From Streptomyces cynarae (GTDB lineage: Bacteria; Actinomycetota; Actinomycetes; Streptomycetales; Streptomycetaceae): 64,000 bases of DNA. The notes under the pieces are model-generated. The model was not told the origin of the DNA and did not search any database. It worked only from the letters and a program-made list of their open reading frames with translations. Below, piece by piece: positions 25,713 to 34,225 of this stretch. Every line of letters starts with the position of its first letter. The stretch's first letter is position 1. Made by a program: the position numbers and the translations under genes. The stretch is from assembly GCF_025642135.1 (NCBI RefSeq), contig NZ_CP106793.1, positions 3,724,001 to 3,788,000 of the forward strand. Direction: 5' to 3'.

Positions 25713-26597
25713 CTACTCCGCGGGAGCCCGGCCCGTCAGCATCGCCAGGCTGTTGCGCACATGGTCCATCTGGGCCTGCACACAGTCCCAGACCTCACCG
25801 TGCTCCCGCAGCACCCGCTCCGTCTCCCGGGCGATACGGTCCTCCCGCAACCGCGCCTCCGCGACCAGCTCGGCGGCGCGCGCCTGGGCGTCCCGCTGCA
25901 CCTGCCGGGCCGACTCCTCGGCCCCGGCCAGCGCCTGCTGCGCCTCCGACAGCGCGACCTCCGCGCGCGCCACCCGCTCCGCCTCCCACGCCTCGACCTC
26001 CGCGACCCGTTCGGCCGCCACCCGCTCCTCGTCCGCCCAGCGCTCGGCGTGCTCCCGCTCCTGCTCGGCGAGCAGCGCCGCCGTGCGCTGCCGCACCTCG
26101 CGCAGCGCGGCCAGCGCCTCCCCGCGCCCCTCCTTCACCTCACGCCGCGCCGTGATCCGTACGTCGTCGGCCTCGGCCCTCGCCGCCAGCAGCCGGATGC
26201 GGACCCGCTCCTCGGCCTCACCGCGCACCTCGTCGGCGTACGCCTGCGCCTCGTCCCGCACCCGCCGCGCCTCCTGCTCCGCCTCCGCGAGCACACGCCC
26301 GGCCTCCTGCCGCGCGTCCTCCCGCAGGGCCTCGGCCTCCTCCCGCGCCAGGTCGAACAGCCGGCCGGCCCGATCGCCCAGGCCCTCGTAGGTCTGGGCG
26401 GGAAGCTGCGTCACCCTCTCCCGCAGCCTCAGCAGGCCGGCCTCCATCTCCTTGGCCAGCACCGTCAGCCGGGCGGCCCGCTCCCAGGCGGCGTCGCGCT
26501 CCCGTGAGAGGGCCGAGGTGTAGGCGTCGACCTGGTCGGGACGGTAGCCGCGCCGCACGGACACGAAGCCGTACGGCGACCTCGATGCGCTGCTCAT
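25713..26597 (-). CDS. DivIVA/cellulose-binding-type long coiled-coil protein
   Basis: 294 aa from ATG 26597 (MSSASRSPYGFVSVRRGYRP), chosen for the strong GAGAGGGG site upstream. The N-terminus has a short DivIVA-like signature (SVRRGYRPDQVDAYTSALSRERDAAWERAARLT). The rest is an almost uninterrupted Ala/Glu/Arg-rich heptad coiled coil to about residue 280. Streptomyces proteins of this kind (often called cellulose-binding, relatives of Scy/FilP and SepIVA) are cytosolic scaffolds at tips or septa. No enzymatic motif is present. It is monocistronic, with a repeat-bearing convergent gap downstream and the SUKH/deaminase transcript's terminator upstream. Confidence 0.85.
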   Translation of the reverse strand: MSSASRSPYGFVSVRRGYRPDQVDAYTSALSRERDAAWERAARLTVLAKEMEAGLLRLRERVTQLPAQTYEGLGDRAGRLFDLAREEAEALREDARQEAGRVLAEAEQEARRVRDEAQAYADEVRGEAEERVRIRLLAARAEADDVRITARREVKEGRGEALAALREVRQRTAALLAEQEREHAERWADEERVAAERVAEVEAWEAERVARAEVALSEAQQALAGAEESARQVQRDAQARAAELVAEARLREDRIARETERVLREHGEVWDCVQAQMDHVRNSLAMLTGRAPAE

Positions 26598-26723
26598 CGT
26601 GGAACCCCTCTCCAGCTGACCCACGAATCGATGATTTTGCGCACATCTTGATGGATCAGTCAGAAGTGTTCATAACGCGACACTCCACGCACAAGCAACG
26701 GATCGCCCCGAAGATCACCCGAA

Positions 26724-26760
26724 AAAGCGGCCGGGCCCGGTCGTCCGTACGACCGGGCCC
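26724..26760 (-). terminator. Intrinsic terminator of the deaminase/SUKH operon
   Basis: Perfect 12-bp arms (GGGCCCGGTCGT / ACGACCGGGCCC, 26733-26760) with a 4-nt loop are followed on the minus strand by GGCCGCTTTTTC, giving a U-run. It is 42 nt beyond the stop at 26802 and is the clearest intrinsic terminator on the minus strand here. Confidence 0.85.
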
Positions 26761-26801
26761 AGAACTGACGAGGTGTCAGGAACGAGATGTTCGGGATGAG
26801 C

Positions 26802-29526
26802 TCACAGCAACCCGTCCCACATCTGCTCCAGCAGCACCGACCACCAGCTCTCCGGCGAACTCAGCGCCGCCGGGTCCAAGGAGGCGAGCTGTGCCTGGAA
26901 GTCCACCGTCCAGCGGCCCGCCTGCTCCTGGTTGAGGCCGTAGCGCAGCCGCCACATGCGGCCGAGCAGGGCCAGAGCGCGCACGAACTCGGGCAGTCCC
27001 GTGTTCACGAACTGCGGCGGCACGGAAGCACCGCCCGGCCCCGCCTCCACGGGCACCGCGACGATGTTCGCAGTCCCGTACTGCACACAGATCGCCTTGC
27101 CGAAGTCGCTGCCCATCACCAGGTACGAGCCCGCGTCAGGGGCCGGCTGCACCCCGCGCTCCTGCGCCAGCTCCGCCAACGTCGGCACCGGACGGCCCGG
27201 CTGGGCCTGCGCCCAGAAGAACGGGCCCATGTCGAACGGCAGTCCCGCCACCACCAGGGTGTGCGCCACGATCGGCGGCACACCCTGCCGGGACACCGCG
27301 GCCTGCTCGAACCGGAAGATCCCCGGACCGAAGGAACCCGCCAGCTCCTGCGCGACGCCCTCCGGCGGGACCGGCGGCGCGGGCTGCACCGCGGGCAACG
27401 GCGCACGCACCGGCCCCGGACGCGCCGGACCGTCCGCCACCTGGTGCAACTCGCCCTGGTGCGCCAGCAGTTGCCGCATGCCCTGCTGGCGGGAGGCGTG
27501 ATCCGCGCCGTACGGGGCGATGCTGGTGATCCGCGCCTGCGGCCAGTTCTCCCGGATCATCCGCGCACAGTACGCGCCCGGCAGCTCGCACGACTCCAGC
27601 TCCGTGTGCAGCTCCAGCACCTGGCCCGGCGGCACGTTCATGGCACGCAGCTCATGAAAGATCTGCCACTCCGGGTGCGGCACGCCCGGCGCCGAACGCC
27701 GGATCAGCTGCTGCTCGGAACCGTCCTGCGCACGGTAGCGCAGCACGGCCTGGTAGCCGGGGCCGACGGTCGGCGGGCCCTGCGGCGGATAACCGTACGA
27801 CGGCTGCGCACCGGGCACGGGCTGCCCGGGCGGCTGCTGACCCGGCACCGGCTGTCCGGGCACCGGTCCGCCCATGGGCTGTCCGGGCACCGGCTGTCCC
27901 GGCGGCTGCGGGGCGCCCGGAGGCATGCCGAGGGCGCCCGGAGGCGGCGGCGGGGCCGCACCGGGGCCTCCGGCCGGCGGCCCGGCCAGCATGGTCTCGG
28001 CGTGATGTACGGCACCGGGGGCGCCGGGCGGCTGCGAAGCACCCGACGGGCTCGGCGTGCCGGGGACACCGGGCTGCCCGCCAGCCGCGGGCTGTCCCGG
28101 AGCACCAGGCTGTCCCGGAGCCGCGGGCAGGGCCGAAGGGCTCGGCGCGCCCGGGGGTTGGGGGCGTCCGGAGCGCCGGGGCCGGGCCGGTTCGGGTCCG
28201 CGAGCATGGTGGCCGCGTGGTGCACACCACCCGGGGGCGGCCCCGGAGGGGTCGGCGCTCCGGGAGCACCCGGCGCCCCCGGAGGGTTCGGCACCCCCGG
28301 ATGGTTCGGCACACCCGGCGGCTGCGGGCCGCCCGGCGCAGGCGGCGGAGGCGACGTCCCAGGGGCCGCCGCGCCCTCGGGCCCGCCCGGGCCGAGCTGC
28401 GAGACGAGCTGGGTCGGCACATACCCGCCCGCCGAAGCGCCCGGTGCGGGCGGCGGCGGGGGAGGCGGCGGAGGCGTGACACCCGGCCGCGCACCCGGAA
28501 TCCCGGGCGCGCCCGGCGGATGCGGCGGACCACCGGCGCGCGCGACCCGCGGAGGCACCGCCTTGCTGGTCGCGGCATCCGCGATGTCCGCGGCGTTCGG
28601 CGCGGGAGTCTGCGGCACGCCGGACGCAGGGGCGCCGGACGCAGGGGCGTTGGACGCAGGGGCGCCGGACGCAGGCGCGCCGGACGCAGGCGCGCCCGGA
28701 GCCTGCGGATAGCCGTACGACGGAGCGCCCGGCGCCTGCGGAGTACCCGGCACACCACCGGCAGGCTGGGGGTAGCCGTACGCCGCCGCCCCCGGCGCAC
28801 CCGGGGCGTGGCGGCACCCGGCGCACCAGGCGCGCCCGGAACGTGCGGAGCACCCTGCGGCGTACCGCCCGGCGTCCTTGCCGCCTTCCCGTCCGGCGGC
28901 GCGGCGCCCTCGTCCGAGTCGCTCAACGGCGGAGCGAACACCGTCTCCGGCAGCGGCACCGAACGGTCCTCGCCCACCTCCGCGTTGGTGTCCGTCCCCG
29001 CCCACGGCGTATCCCCCGCGGACGCACCCGGCACCTCCTCGCCACCACCGGCCGCAGGCCACGCCGTACCCGACGCACCCGGAGAAACCGCCGCGGCCGG
29101 ACGCGAACCCGCCCCGTCCGACGCGCCCTCACCGGACGTCCGACGCTCCGGAACCCCCCTCCTGTCCGCCGCCTCCTGGAGCCACTCCGGCGGCGTCAAC
29201 AGGAACGACGTCTGGTTCAGATCCACCCGGGCCGCAGGCGCCGGAACCGCGGGTGCCTCCGCGTCCCGCGCCCCGTACTCCTCCTCGTACCGGCGGATCA
29301 CCTCACCCACCGGCAGCCCCGGCCACAGCGTCGCCTCACCACTGTCCCGGGCGATCACCAGCCGCTGAGCGCCCCCGTCCGAACGCGGCCCCCCTTCCCG
29401 GTCCTCCGCCCACATCACGAACCCGAGCTCGAACTCCCGCACCCGCACCTCACGATGCAGATACGCCGGAACATCCCCGTTGATCCACTCTTCCGCGCGC
29501 TCCTGCGCCTGCGCGAACGTCACCAT
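26802..29526 (-). pseudogene. Imm35/YrhB-like + Pro-rich + deaminase + SUKH-4 fusion, with two apparent 1-nt frameshifts
   Basis: With two bases restored this is one 908-aa gene. Frame 1 (29526 to ~28807) has an Imm35/YrhB-like domain (MVTFAQAQERAEEWINGD ... LWPGLPVGEVIRRYEEEYG) and a linker. Frame 2 (~28800 to ~28158) and frame 3 (from ~28150) continue a Pro/Gly/Ala-rich region with repeated PGAPASGAPASG and VHHAxTMLA units. Frame 3 then has a deaminase fold: HPEW (motif 1, ~27667-27678) and HTELESCELPGAYC (motif 2, Cys-x6-Cys, ~27568-27612). A C-terminal SUKH-4 domain follows (GVPPIVAHTLVVAGLPFDMGPFF ... SYLVMGSDFGKAICVQYG). The breaks sit in G-runs at 28803-28806 and 28153-28157. No signal peptide. 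It begins 10 nt after the WHH/SUKH gene, so the two share an operon. Confidence 0.8.
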
Positions 29527-29535
29527 CGCCCGAAC

Positions 29536-30543
29536 TCACTCCCCCACCGAAGACGCCGACGGCCCCGACGACACCGGCACCGCACGCGCGAACCCACCGT
29601 CCACCATCAGATTCGCCACGGTCTCCAACTCCGGCGGCTGACCCGCGAGCCGCCCCAGGAACTGGTCGAAGTCGTCACCGCACGGCAGCAACAACCGCTC
29701 CACCCGCTCCGCAGGCGTCCACGACGCGTCCACATCCCGCGCATCGTCATACGCGCAGAACCACACCGAACCGATCCGGTCACCCTTCACCTTCACGGCC
29801 AGCAACCCGCCCTGCACAAAACCGACGCCCAGATAGTCCTTCGTCAGATGGTCACGCAGACACTTGTTCACATACACCAGGTCATTGACCGCCGCCTCGT
29901 CCCGCACCGTGAAGAACGGCTGGTCCACCAGCAGCCCCAACTCCGCGTCCAACGCCGCACCCACCGGCGCACAACCACCCGCCGCCTTCAAAAACGACCG
30001 GTACGCACCCGGCAGCCGATACCCCAGGTCCTCCTCGACCCCCTGCACCTGGGACTCCGTCACCGCCACCGACGACTTCGGCAACCCGAAATGCACCGGC
30101 CGCGTCTCCTGCAACGGCCGCGTCCCCCGCTTGCCCTGATCCACCCTCGCCGTCGCGATCCCCCCGTGATGCCGCAACAACGCCTTCACCTCGACCGGAA
30201 CCAACTCCAGCCGCCGCGAACCCCGCACGTGATGCCACGTCCACCCATGCGGCGTCGCCACCGACGCGACCGTGTCCCACAACTCGTGCCCCGACGCCGC
30301 CAACGCCGCGTTCGCCGACACATAGTCCGTCAGCCGCAACTCGTCCACACCGAAACCCTCCGGCGGATCCGCGATCTCAGCGGCCGCACGGGCATACGGC
30401 GAGAAATCCGGATAACCGTACTCGTCGACCCGCACCCCCCTCGGATGCCTGGCCGCCCTCACCGGATCCGGAAAGTGCACGACCTGCCCGGCGTATGCCG
30501 CGTTCGGCGGCGCGGCCTGCTGCCCGAGCCGACCTGTCGTCAC
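29536..30543 (-). CDS. WHH-type HNH nuclease fused to SUKH-1 (SMI1/KNR4) domain
   Basis: 335 aa from GTG 30543, chosen for AGGGGG 6 nt upstream. The frame continues upstream without a site. The N-terminal part resembles WHH/LHH HNH-superfamily toxin domains: VDEYGYPDFSPYARA, then YVSANAALAASGHELWDT and TPHGWTWHHVRGSRRLELVP (Trp-His-His about residues 103-105) with RHHGG (about 125). From about residue 165 a SMI1/KNR4 (SUKH-1) domain follows: VTESQVQGVEEDLGYRLPGAYRSFLKAAGG and later GSVWFCAYDD. In polymorphic toxin systems the nuclease and SUKH immunity protein are normally separate genes. Here they are fused and unsecreted, so the nuclease may be self-inhibited or act inside the cell. First gene of the two-gene minus-strand operon. 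Confidence 0.75.
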   Translation of the reverse strand: MTTGRLGQQAAPPNAAYAGQVVHFPDPVRAARHPRGVRVDEYGYPDFSPYARAAAEIADPPEGFGVDELRLTDYVSANAALAASGHELWDTVASVATPHGWTWHHVRGSRRLELVPVEVKALLRHHGGIATARVDQGKRGTRPLQETRPVHFGLPKSSVAVTESQVQGVEEDLGYRLPGAYRSFLKAAGGCAPVGAALDAELGLLVDQPFFTVRDEAAVNDLVYVNKCLRDHLTKDYLGVGFVQGGLLAVKVKGDRIGSVWFCAYDDARDVDASWTPAERVERLLLPCGDDFDQFLGRLAGQPPELETVANLMVDGGFARAVPVSSGPSASSVGE

Positions 30544-30806
30544 GGTTGCCCCCTGCGGCTTTCTGTCTGGCCTGTACGGCGATACGGATCGCGGACCCCG
30601 ACAGCCTATGCGGTACGACGACACCGGTCACCGGCCCACTACTCCCCCAACCCCCCGGCCCACCACCCCCACGTGACCAGCCGTCACCCCACCGTGACCG
30701 AACAACCCGACCCGGGCGTGTCACACCGCCCCAGCTTCCGCACCCGCCACGGCATTTGGCAGTCTGTGTCCCCACCGGGGGGATGCACGGGAGGGGAAAG
30801 ACGATC
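30544..30806. promoter_or_regulatory. Divergent promoter region of the deaminase/SUKH cluster
   Basis: This 263-bp spacer separates the minus-strand WHH/SUKH operon from the plus-strand deaminase/SUKH-3 pair and must carry both promoters. It is C-rich on the plus strand, with repeated CCCACCAC-like tracts near 30650-30680. No clear palindromic operator or -10/-35 was found. Confidence 0.4.
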
Positions 30807-31307
30807 ATGAACACGGCACCGACAGACACGTCCGGCGACCCGCGCATCGGCTGGAGCACCACCGACGCGCCCCCCGCCCCCACCCTCCGCCACCGCCGCG
30901 ACGGCATCCTCCCCACCGTCGCCGCCGCCCTCTCCGTCCGCGGCGCCACCCTCACCGGCACCGCCGCCCGCGGCGACCAAACCCCCGCCCTCCACCCCCT
31001 CGTCCAGGACTTCCTCGACACCCTCACCAGCAGCCAACGCGACCGCTACACCGGACGCTGCGCCGAAACCATCCTCATCTCCCGCCACATCACCGCCGCC
31101 GACGCCGCCCGCAGCAAACGCGCCGCCCGCAGACCCATGACCAACGGCGAAGCCCGCAAAGCCCTCAAACACGCCAAACTCACCACCCGCCGCATCCGAG
31201 AGGACGGCGACCCCCTCCACGGCAGCTTCGCCCCACCCTGCCGCGCCTGCACCGCACTCAGCGCCCACTTCGGCGTCCGCATCATCGACCCCACACCGCA
31301 GGACTGA
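30807..31307 (+). CDS. YwqJ-type deaminase protein
   Basis: 166 aa from ATG 30807, with GGGAGGGGAAAG upstream. Zinc-deaminase signatures: YTGRCAE (Cys85-Ala-Glu87, motif 1 with Cys in place of His) and APPCRAC (Cys145, Cys148, motif 2 PCxxC), separated by a helical region. This is the pattern of the YwqJ-related putative deaminases found as toxin tips. The N-terminal 60 residues are unstructured and there is no signal peptide, RHS or WXG module, so the protein is predicted cytosolic. The SUKH-3 gene 65 nt downstream is the likely immunity partner. Possible substrate: nucleic acid base or free nucleotide, not determinable from sequence. Confidence 0.8.
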   Translation: MNTAPTDTSGDPRIGWSTTDAPPAPTLRHRRDGILPTVAAALSVRGATLTGTAARGDQTPALHPLVQDFLDTLTSSQRDRYTGRCAETILISRHITAADAARSKRAARRPMTNGEARKALKHAKLTTRRIREDGDPLHGSFAPPCRACTALSAHFGVRIIDPTPQD

Positions 31308-31372
31308 CACCCCACGCCCCCACACAACGGCACCCCCCACGCCGGACCAGGAACCCGACGAACGAAGAGCAG

Positions 31373-31864
31373 ATGCACGCCGACCGCTCCACCACCCGCT
31401 TCTCCGTCCCCGTCGACGCCGCACTGCGCACCGCAGGCTGGCAACCAGGCCGCTGGGACATAAAGCAAGCCGAAATCTGGGCCGACACCCTCCGCAGCCA
31501 CACCTCACCCGCAGGCCACCGGCACGCCGTCTTCCCCGCCGCCGTCGAAGCCTGGGCCGAATTCGGTGGCCTCCACATCACCGCCCAAGGCCCCGGCCGC
31601 CAACTCGCCCCCGCCACCCTCCACCTCGACCCCCTGCACGGCCTCCACATGGCCCGCACCCTCGGCGACCTCGGCCGCGCCCTCGACACCGAAGTCAGCC
31701 CCCTCGGCGAGGAAACCGACAGCCACACCCTCATCGCCATCGACACCGAAGGCCGCGTCTACGCCCTCGACCACACCGGCGACTGGTACCTCGGCCCCGA
31801 CATCGACCACGGCCTCACCACCCTGCTCACCGGAATCGCCCCCGCACGACTCACCACAGGGTGA
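31373..31864 (+). CDS. SUKH-3 domain immunity-type protein
   Basis: 163 aa from ATG 31373, with GAAGAG about 5 nt upstream. It matches the SUKH-3 pattern: the opening FSVPVDAALRTAGWQPGRWDIKQAEIWAD, a central FPAAVEAWAEFGGLHI, LHLDPLHGL, LGRALDTEVSPLGEE, IAIDTEGRVYALDHTGDWYLGPDIDHGLTTLL. SUKH-superfamily proteins neutralise nucleases and deaminases of polymorphic toxin systems. Its place directly after the YwqJ-type deaminase makes it the probable neutraliser. The stop lies 1 nt from the stop of the convergent histidine kinase gene. Confidence 0.85.
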   Translation: MHADRSTTRFSVPVDAALRTAGWQPGRWDIKQAEIWADTLRSHTSPAGHRHAVFPAAVEAWAEFGGLHITAQGPGRQLAPATLHLDPLHGLHMARTLGDLGRALDTEVSPLGEETDSHTLIAIDTEGRVYALDHTGDWYLGPDIDHGLTTLLTGIAPARLTTG

Positions 31865-33185: not shown

Positions 33186-33352
33186 GGCTCCAGCCTACGG
33201 GCGCCCCGCACGGCTTTTCCGGCGAGTTTCCACGACTGCGCCACACCACACTCCGTAACCGAACAGAAGCGAAACGCCCCGGAATCCCTCGAACTGCTGA
33301 ATCGCACACTGTTCGACCACGGAAGGACGGATTCCGCCCAGAGGTTATGCCC

Positions 33353-34225
33353 ATGGCACACGCACAGGGCAAGTACGCGGACTTCGAGAGCCTCCGGGAG
33401 CGAGCGGTGGCACTACGGCGCGCGGGCCTCAGCCGCCGACAGATCCGCGACCGGCTGCACGTCGACAACAACGACATCCTCAACCGGCTCTTGGAAGGCG
33501 AGCCGCCCCCGGAATGGACGAAGCGCCCGAACGCGAAGGACGACCTGCGCGACAGGGCGCGTGAGCTACGGCTTCAAGGCTGGACGTACGACCAGATCCA
33601 GGTGGAGCTGGGGTGCTCCAAGAGTTCGATCTCGCTGTGGGTACGGGATCTGCCGAGGCCGGAGCGCAGGCGCTCCTATGAGGAAGCAGCGGCCATCGCC
33701 CGGCGGGGATGGGAGGCGAAGTTGCGGATCCGCGACGAGGAACGCCAGCAAACCAAGCAACTGGCATTGCAAGAGATCGGGCAACTGACCAACCGCGAGT
33801 TGTTCCTCGTGGGCGTGGGGCTGTACTGGGCCGAGGGCTCAAAGAGCAAGCCCTACCGGCGGCAGGAGCGTGTCATCTTCGTGAACAGCGACCCCAACAT
33901 GATCAGCCTGTACCTGGCCTGGCTCAACTTACTGGGGGTCGAGCCGGAGCGCCTCAGGTTCGCCGTCCACATTCACGAGACCGCAGACGTGGCGGCCGCC
34001 GAGGAGTTCTGGGCGACTCACGTGGGCGTAGAACGAGAGGTACTTCTGAAGACGACGCTCAAGAAGCACAACCCCAGTACGAACCGCAAGAACACAGACG
34101 AGACCTATCACGGCTGTCTCCGAGTCGACGTGCGCGGCGCAGCGGACCTGTACCGTCGCATCGAAGGCTGGTGGTACGGCATAGTAGGGGCTGTCACCGC
34201 AGCCGATCTAGCAAATCGGACATAG
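33353..34225 (+). CDS. HTH protein with LAGLIDADG-like domain, function unknown
   Basis: 290 aa from ATG 33353, with AGAGG 8 nt upstream. An ATG two codons earlier is less well placed. Two helix-turn-helix-like segments are visible: LRRAGLSRRQIRDRLHVDNNDIL (about 20-45) and LRLQGWTYDQIQVELGCSKSSISLWVRDL (about 70-100). The C-terminal half has FLVGVGLYWAEGSKSKPY and VNSDPNMISLYLAWLNLLGV, which resemble a LAGLIDADG homing-endonuclease fold. It contains a TTA leucine codon (33929-33931, residue 193), so translation may depend on the rare bldA tRNA. It ends 6 nt before tRNA-Gln, which fits acquisition at a tRNA locus. Possibly a DNA-binding regulator or relic endonuclease. Confidence 0.75.
   Translation: MAHAQGKYADFESLRERAVALRRAGLSRRQIRDRLHVDNNDILNRLLEGEPPPEWTKRPNAKDDLRDRARELRLQGWTYDQIQVELGCSKSSISLWVRDLPRPERRRSYEEAAAIARRGWEAKLRIRDEERQQTKQLALQEIGQLTNRELFLVGVGLYWAEGSKSKPYRRQERVIFVNSDPNMISLYLAWLNLLGVEPERLRFAVHIHETADVAAAEEFWATHVGVEREVLLKTTLKKHNPSTNRKNTDETYHGCLRVDVRGAADLYRRIEGWWYGIVGAVTAADLANRT

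Follow-up and report, generated by a model that had tools for sequence, protein, structure and literature searches.

A core Streptomycetaceae locus built from polymorphic-toxin domains: two predicted deaminases paired in cis with SUKH domains beside glmU

Deaminase and nuclease toxins are fast-changing weapons. The parts of Zhang et al. (2012, PMC3482391) on which we draw list SUKH immunity together with the YwqJ and XOO2897 deaminases, treat SUKH domains as established immunity domains and describe polyimmunity loci. It is also proposed there that ComI-ComJ of Bacillus, a nuclease and its inhibitor acting in DNA uptake, is a toxin-immunity pair that has taken on a cellular task. In this work we describe a locus of Streptomyces cynarae lying in a stretch of 64,000 nt (contig NZ_CP106793.1, positions 3,724,001-3,788,000; the genome has 9.36 Mb in 2 contigs), to which we refer as the window and whose numbering is used unless another locus is named. 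Its four genes, with domains identified by Pfam, make up two divergent operons, WHH-SUKH-1 and XOO_2897-SUKH-4 on the left (minus strand), YwqJ and SUKH-3 on the right (plus strand). At the level of conserved motifs and gene arrangement the analysis shows two putative deaminases whose zinc-site signatures are invariant and which each have a SUKH partner in cis (a fused SUKH-4 in one case, an adjacent and sometimes fused SUKH-3 in the other). Our reading, to which we give even chances, is that this core, vertically inherited locus of the Streptomycetaceae was built from polymorphic-toxin parts and is retained in the producing cell as a deaminase module of the cytoplasm that SUKH domains keep in check in cis.

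The locus shares with the polymorphic toxin systems, as described in those parts of PMC3482391, the same domain families, including recognised toxin domains (PF14440, PF14431 and PF14414), and in the YwqJ-SUKH-3 operon also the order of toxin before immunity, the other two toxin/SUKH pairs being fused. It differs from them in having no recognised trafficking domain or variable toxin tail, and in being fixed, vertically inherited and slow to change. ComI-ComJ provides a precedent for a cellular job of a toxin-immunity pair, but has other domains, consists of a single pair and serves transformation. The genes and domains of the locus are the following.

26802..29526, minus strand: deaminase-SUKH-4 gene; its product has an N-terminal domain, then a Pro-rich linker, XOO_2897 deaminase and SUKH-4; frame interrupted within the linker in our assembly
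29157..29526, minus strand: N-terminal domain of the deaminase-SUKH-4 gene, conserved, fold unassigned, without profile match
27462..27764, minus strand: XOO_2897-type deaminase domain (PF14440, 4.9e-36), HPE and C-x6-C intact
26823..27353, minus strand: SUKH-4 domain fused to the deaminase (PF14435, 4.4e-45)
29536..30543, minus strand: gene at the start of the left operon, coding for the 335-aa WHH-SUKH-1 fusion protein
30142..30261, minus strand: WHH (HNH-type) domain (PF14414, 1e-14), Lys at the position of the canonical helix His
29656..30063, minus strand: SUKH-1 (SMI1/KNR4) domain (PF09346, 3.8e-11)
30544..30806: divergent intergenic region, 263 bp
30807..31307, plus strand: YwqJ-type deaminase, 166 aa (PF14431, 5.2e-27), C-x-E and PCxxC intact
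31373..31864, plus strand: SUKH-3 protein, 163 aa, partner of the YwqJ deaminase (PF14433, 3.4e-59)

In the left operon 9 bp separate the WHH-SUKH-1 gene from the deaminase-SUKH-4 gene. A preliminary description of this DNA, made from the letters alone, had claimed two transcription units diverging from a 263-bp spacer, which the gene layout bears out, as well as two deaminase-type domains and SUKH-1, -3 and -4 domains. It had left room for profile searches finding no such fold; the Pfam search that it recommended found both deaminases (PF14440 and PF14431) above the cut-offs and all three SUKH families (PF09346, PF14433, PF14435).

The distribution was determined in an even sample of 150 Streptomyces genomes, our own included. 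The SUKH-3 protein was found in 144 of them, YwqJ in 142 (140 at E<=1.7e-26), PF14440 in 141 (140 at E<=2.1e-34) and WHH-SUKH-1 in 141, with 73-97% identity (own 100). At least one of the four genes was present in 149/150 genomes, and the only genome without all four, G130, is an assembly of 780 contigs. Across the family, WHH-SUKH-1 occurs in 117 of 121 Streptomycetaceae genomes and in 16/17 genera, one of these, genus g130, having only distant copies (42-43% identity), which lie in an accessory island. YwqJ is present in all 3 genomes of genus g127 and all 4 of genus g130 tested, and it adjoins SUKH-3 near glmU in the three loci read from these two genera (L348, L349, L351). Outside the family, a class-wide sample yielded 5 distant WHH matches with 37-51% identity (345 genomes; the other 33 matches were all from Streptomyces) and 6 weak YwqJ matches with 32-35% (296 genomes; the other 28 matches were all from Streptomyces). 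The closest named WHH-SUKH-1, among the best 80 of 578 named loci, is that of Streptomyces sp. Y2F8-2 (98% identity). Streptomyces has few WHH domains beyond this locus: a match was found in 29 of 31 genomes, and only two of them had a second one. XOO_2897-type domains do occur beyond the core locus, many genomes having more than one PF14440 match.

Gene order was compared in 80 loci fetched from the 150 genomes, 79 of them picked because their PF14440 match was strong and the contig extended far enough on the flanks, to which genome G010 was added; this set is biased to complete loci. Together with the window, the order and orientation of the four genes were the same in 79/81 Streptomyces loci, and in 74 of those 79 the kinase and GlmU genes followed on the right. 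Of 20 loci belonging to 15 other genera, 17 also kept the relative gene order, in some cases with additional DNA separating the operons; the exceptions were two g130 loci in the accessory island and one locus of genus g136. The two divergent operons are separable modules, because they lie apart in G012 and in g136. In G012 they are at 4.22 and 8.92 Mb of one chromosome (L156, L281), the break being apparently in or near the shared spacer, and in g136 the right operon lies at a distance of about 27 kb in G508 and of 6 kb in G495. The conservation across Streptomyces genomes, which the preliminary description had wished to see examined, thus turned out to be near-universal, with synteny beside glmU.

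WHH-SUKH-1, deaminase-SUKH-4 and GlmU all had a median pairwise identity of 83%, YwqJ and SUKH-3 one of 73%. The omega values obtained by the Nei-Gojobori method (NG86), which owing to the GC-rich codons have meaning only relative to each other, were 0.185 for WHH-SUKH-1 and 0.208 for deaminase-SUKH-4 vs. 0.194 for GlmU, and 0.377 for YwqJ and 0.365 for SUKH-3 vs. 0.352 for the neighbouring kinase. The distances of the genes correlated with those of GlmU (r 0.56-0.70; 0.66 for the kinase; 0/1000 permutations) in 73 loci with all genes, from which L118, L141, L144 and L151 had been left out owing to rearranged flanking genes; no value was obtained for the DivIVA-like neighbour. Judged by sequence divergence, these comparisons show the locus to be vertically inherited and under strong purifying selection. 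The variable tips and rapid diversification typical of polymorphic toxins were not seen: the gene order is fixed and omega is like that of GlmU or the kinase. A recent mobile island is ruled out by the synteny, the family-wide spread and the distance correlation. Carriage by phages or plasmids was also rejected: a search with WHH-SUKH-1 alone found no relatives in 50,697 phage records, and the plasmid records gave only low-identity matches, 6 to WHH-SUKH-1 (23.1-35.8%) and 1 to YwqJ (37%).

The XOO_2897 domain has a deaminase-like fold resembling cytidine deaminase and TadA. Its H-x-E motif and both of its Cys residues (spacing C-x6-C) were invariant in 98/98 sequences from Streptomyces and other genera, and with the profile match, the [HCD]xE motif and the paired Cys the protein carries the deaminase signature and is predicted to act on nucleic acid. 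YwqJ likewise has its profile match, CxE and CxxC. The C, the E and both Cys of YwqJ were invariant in 80/80 Streptomyces loci; when other genera were included, C-x-E was found in 97/99 sequences, the two exceptions (Asp) being non-syntenic copies in the g130 island, and both Cys of PCxxC in 99/99. L141 and L170 encode YwqJ and SUKH-3 as a single polypeptide; in G113 and G135, the matches to the two lie in open frames of the same length. The SUKH-4 domain gave fold matches to Knr4, FBXO3 and Syd, and a sequence search against solved structures found nothing convincing for deaminase-SUKH-4, YwqJ or SUKH-3. The Imm35/YrhB-like domain claimed in the preliminary description has no profile support: searches with the N-terminal domain gave no such match at E<=10 for 10 members, and there is a weak resemblance by eye.

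In our assembly the deaminase-SUKH-4 gene crosses three frames inside the Pro-rich linker. Among the 80 Streptomyces loci in which both gene ends were found, the window included, the frame was continuous in 69 and broken in 11, intact copies thus being the rule among the loci read. It is plausible that the broken frame is an assembly error, because the linker is a long, GC-rich repetitive stretch in or beside which several draft contigs stop, with PF14440 matches within about 0.4 kb of a contig end in e.g. G033, G081, G114 and G014; a true frameshift would be the alternative.

The third toxin-type domain is of a different kind. In HNH nucleases the His of the helix is a metal ligand. The Trp-His-His of the WHH motif was kept in 101/101 WHH-SUKH-1 sequences of Streptomyces and other genera (two of these being the g130 island fusions), and in all 101 the helix position is Lys, whereas unfused WHH toxins have His there. 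The canonical His set was complete in all nine unfused comparators: the Rhs toxin chains 8bd1 and 8h8a, which are near-identical PDB chains, L342 (a 163-aa open frame), L280, the g130 toxin and four plasmid-borne proteins, which adjoin separate SMI1/KNR4 genes. Each SUKH-1 fusion examined departs from the canonical set, with Lys in the core locus, in the two g130 fusions and in L282. In the WHH-SUKH-1 relatives L277, L278 and L279 (family f18, outside the Streptomycetaceae) the WHH itself is WAH or WTH. We read this pattern as loss or change of the nuclease chemistry on fusion to SUKH-1, and the WHH domain is perhaps a pseudo-nuclease. The earlier claim of a WHH/HNH nuclease-type domain holds for the profile match and fails for the canonical active site: the full set of active-site His residues of a WHH (HNH/EndoVII) nuclease is not there. 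Neither this change nor the separability of the two operons had been noticed in that description. The search of solved structures with WHH-SUKH-1 gave weak matches to two or three Rhs chains (E 0.007-0.34). The AlphaFold model of the protein has a strand-strand-helix at the WHH motif and is too poor for interface claims (mean predicted local distance difference test score, pLDDT, 59.9; predicted template modelling score, pTM, 0.49).

Relatives of the cassette parts were found in two other settings. Our own genome encodes, at about 6.38 Mb (L284 6981-8042, minus strand), a second XOO_2897-SUKH-4 protein, which has the same two-domain architecture and 33% identity to the core protein, but differs in having PAE in place of HPE and in the replacement of both Cys; it is likely a pseudo-deaminase. 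About 2 kb from this paralogue there is an FtsK/SpoIIIE ATPase, which we read as EccC of a type VII system, and a small neighbour is WXG-like, without a Pfam match. The second setting is the accessory island of genus g130 (L289 97-9172, genome G489). At its head stands a toxin of 2124 aa that has two papain-fold glutamine deamidase domains as well as an intact WHH. After the toxin come SUKH-1, a WHH(Lys)-SUKH-1 fusion, YwqJ and a SUKH-3 that is linked to a domain resembling the N-terminal domain of the core deaminase-SUKH-4 protein (tblastn 3e-5). The island is like the core locus in uniting these parts in one cluster, and unlike it in the toxin at its head, in having all genes on one strand and in its distant WHH fusion (41% identity); there is no glmU in the 14 kb read, and the YwqJ-SUKH-3 pair that g130 has near glmU belongs to a different locus (L349). 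The core cassette parts thus also occur in a polymorphic-toxin setting, which is consistent with domestication from such a system, a direction that we infer. Open frames of 270-454 aa in other Streptomyces (L353-L358) appear by eye to have a SUKH-4-type end followed by XOO_2897 with intact motifs, the reverse of the core order.

No signal of export was found in the four proteins. Pfam gave no WXG, RHS or other export domain, and no hydrophobic signal- or membrane-like segment was seen in the protein pieces tested, which lay outside the linker; the trafficking modules of polymorphic toxins (RHS, WXG/LXG, FilH, signal peptide) are accordingly missing among the recognised features. This agrees with the preliminary description, which had noted no signal peptide, RHS, WXG or PPE delivery module, and its suggestion of a retained internal function at a chromosomal core location is strongly supported by the near-universal presence, the synteny beside glmU, the vertical inheritance, the purifying selection and the invariant motifs. 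It had also asked about a delivery partner encoded at another site. In the same genome the catalytically changed deaminase-SUKH-4 relative does lie beside the FtsK/SpoIIIE ATPase of the type VII kind, and export of the core proteins is not thereby shown. In addition, covalent toxin-SUKH fusions make little sense as exported weapons. A PADLOC search with 5 protein pieces gave no match at E<=0.01 to its library of defence families described by 2023. Of the internal roles that had been proposed (editing, phage defence, development), phage defence is the least favoured, because there is no PADLOC match, no phage relative of WHH-SUKH-1 and no patchy, diversifying distribution.

The non-coding DNA has a terminator and two conserved spacer blocks, and a coiled-coil gene borders the cassette on the left:

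26722..26760, minus strand: intrinsic terminator, 14-bp GC-rich stem and T run, closing the left operon (sequence and RNA fold)
30601..30614, minus strand: conserved block containing TAGGCT (minus strand), which might be a -10 element of the left operon (spacer alignment)
30754..30767, plus strand: ATTTGGCAGTCTGT, a conserved block that may be a promoter or an operator of the right operon (spacer alignment)
25713..26624, minus strand: DivIVA-like coiled-coil gene, left neighbour (Pfam)

The RNA fold of 26715-26800 has z = -4.43, and 0/200 shuffles folded equally well. Because this strong intrinsic terminator closes the left operon, the DivIVA-like gene beyond it is probably a separate unit. 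Conservation of the spacer was computed on 76 of 80 spacers, four with unusual length being left out: at least 90% conservation was found in 13/14 columns of the TAGGCT block and in 9/14 columns of the ATTTGGCAGTCTGT block. A scan of the spacer with the sigma-70 consensus found no site. The DivIVA-like gene stands beside the cassette in 79/81 loci read and is the fastest-evolving neighbour (median identity 51%, omega 0.591). On the right, a 292-aa gene (33347-34225, plus strand) between the histidine kinase and glmU was present in 46/81 loci and is an accessory insertion in an otherwise fixed site. From the gene order around SCO3119, we take SCO3115-SCO3118 to be the S. coelicolor orthologues of the four genes. 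No publication on the four-gene locus or on SCO3115-SCO3118 was found, and novelty in print is limited to the literature collection searched. The neighbouring orphan kinase SCO3119 is listed in PMC9739842 and PMC13170358.

The retained deaminase module might work as follows. In the resting cell the SUKH domains would hold the deaminases inactive, toxin and antidote forming one unit. A cue, for which phage, DNA damage, development and membrane stress are candidates, would relieve the inhibition, and the released deaminases would act on nucleic acid of the same cytoplasm, either in regulated editing or mutagenesis or in a step of growth arrest or death. WHH-SUKH-1 may be a pseudo-nuclease that binds nucleic acid or a partner, and not a standard metal-dependent nuclease. 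A bolder version, which we put forward only tentatively and consider rather doubtful, is a family-wide, self-restrained deamination switch: two bacterial relatives of APOBEC-type mutators, locked by SUKH, would be released in their own cytoplasm in development or stress to edit RNA, mutate DNA or end a hyphal compartment, with the pseudo-nuclease-SUKH-1 protein as sensor or adaptor.

Other explanations would account for part of the data. The locus could be a resident immunity shield, whose SUKH domains guard the family when kin or competitors export WHH and deaminase toxins, and whose fused toxin-like domains are decoys or leftovers. The established immunity role of SUKH and the polyimmunity loci described in the cited parts of PMC3482391 speak for it, and so do the loss of the canonical His from WHH in every SUKH-1 fusion examined and the g130 fusion of this type that adjoins the 2124-aa toxin with intact WHH. 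We find it unlikely: both deaminases keep their catalytic residues family-wide, which is unexpected of decoys, and immunity genes facing changing toxins should diversify, whereas the long proteins evolve like GlmU. The near-universality and GlmU-like constraint, the conserved TAGGCT in front of the left operon, a possible -10 element, and the resemblance of the deaminase fold to cytidine deaminase and TadA would also suit constitutive housekeeping enzymes that deaminate e.g. RNA or nucleotides, the role of SUKH being that of a folding or docking partner and not of an inhibitor. Against this, which we hold to be quite unlikely, stand the domain families, otherwise those of toxins, with SUKH partners throughout, the lack of the left operon in genus g127 and the lack of one deaminase in G010.

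Abortive-infection phage defence, in which SUKH-held deaminases freed on infection would damage phage and host nucleic acid, gains from the predicted nucleic-acid-targeting effectors with built-in inhibitors, from the missing sign of export and from the divergent operons with conserved spacer blocks. The near-universal vertical inheritance with low diversity, the lack of a PADLOC match and the absence of WHH-SUKH-1 relatives from the phage records searched make it distinctly improbable. To export of the proteins as effectors, through a type VII or a contractile injection system encoded elsewhere in the genome, we assign the lowest probability among these explanations. The paralogue at 6.38 Mb lies beside the ATPase read as EccC, and S. 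coelicolor has a cytoplasmic contractile injection system linked to cell death under stress (PMC10066040); PMC12237407 likewise treats contractile injection in the cytoplasm and cell death in this species. Nevertheless, the main texts of these two papers, as searched, do not mention deaminase, SUKH or nuclease, Pfam found no WXG, RHS or other export domain, two of the toxin-type domains are fused to their own SUKH, and the locus is fixed, not variable.

It must be noted that several observations weigh against the retained, SUKH-restrained deaminase module as well. The frame breaks in 11/80 loci could mean dispensability of the deaminase-SUKH-4 gene rather than assembly error. Genus g127 is without WHH-SUKH-1 in 3/3 genomes and has a single weak PF14440 match, elsewhere, and genome G010, assembled in 2 contigs, is without the deaminase-SUKH-4 part. 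YwqJ and SUKH-3 change at about double the rate of the left pair, with individual sequence pairs of the two reaching omega values of 1.86 and 2.04. The paralogue beside a type-VII-kind ATPase may point to a secretion link for the deaminase-SUKH-4 architecture. The change in the WHH domain argues against three live toxins at the locus, a possibility weakened by the Lys in the motif. Deaminase activity, inhibition by SUKH, substrate and trigger are the parts of the proposal that we infer.

In this locus weapon-type parts have become fixed next to glmU in the core genome of a major bacterial family, and the active-site motifs of the deaminases are intact. The separable operons and the altered WHH domain lead to direct, testable predictions. 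If the proteins act inside the cell, the locus would offer a natural and genetically accessible model of how base-changing toxins become domesticated. It would then also be a candidate for regulated deamination, for stress mutagenesis or for the death of compartments in Streptomyces.

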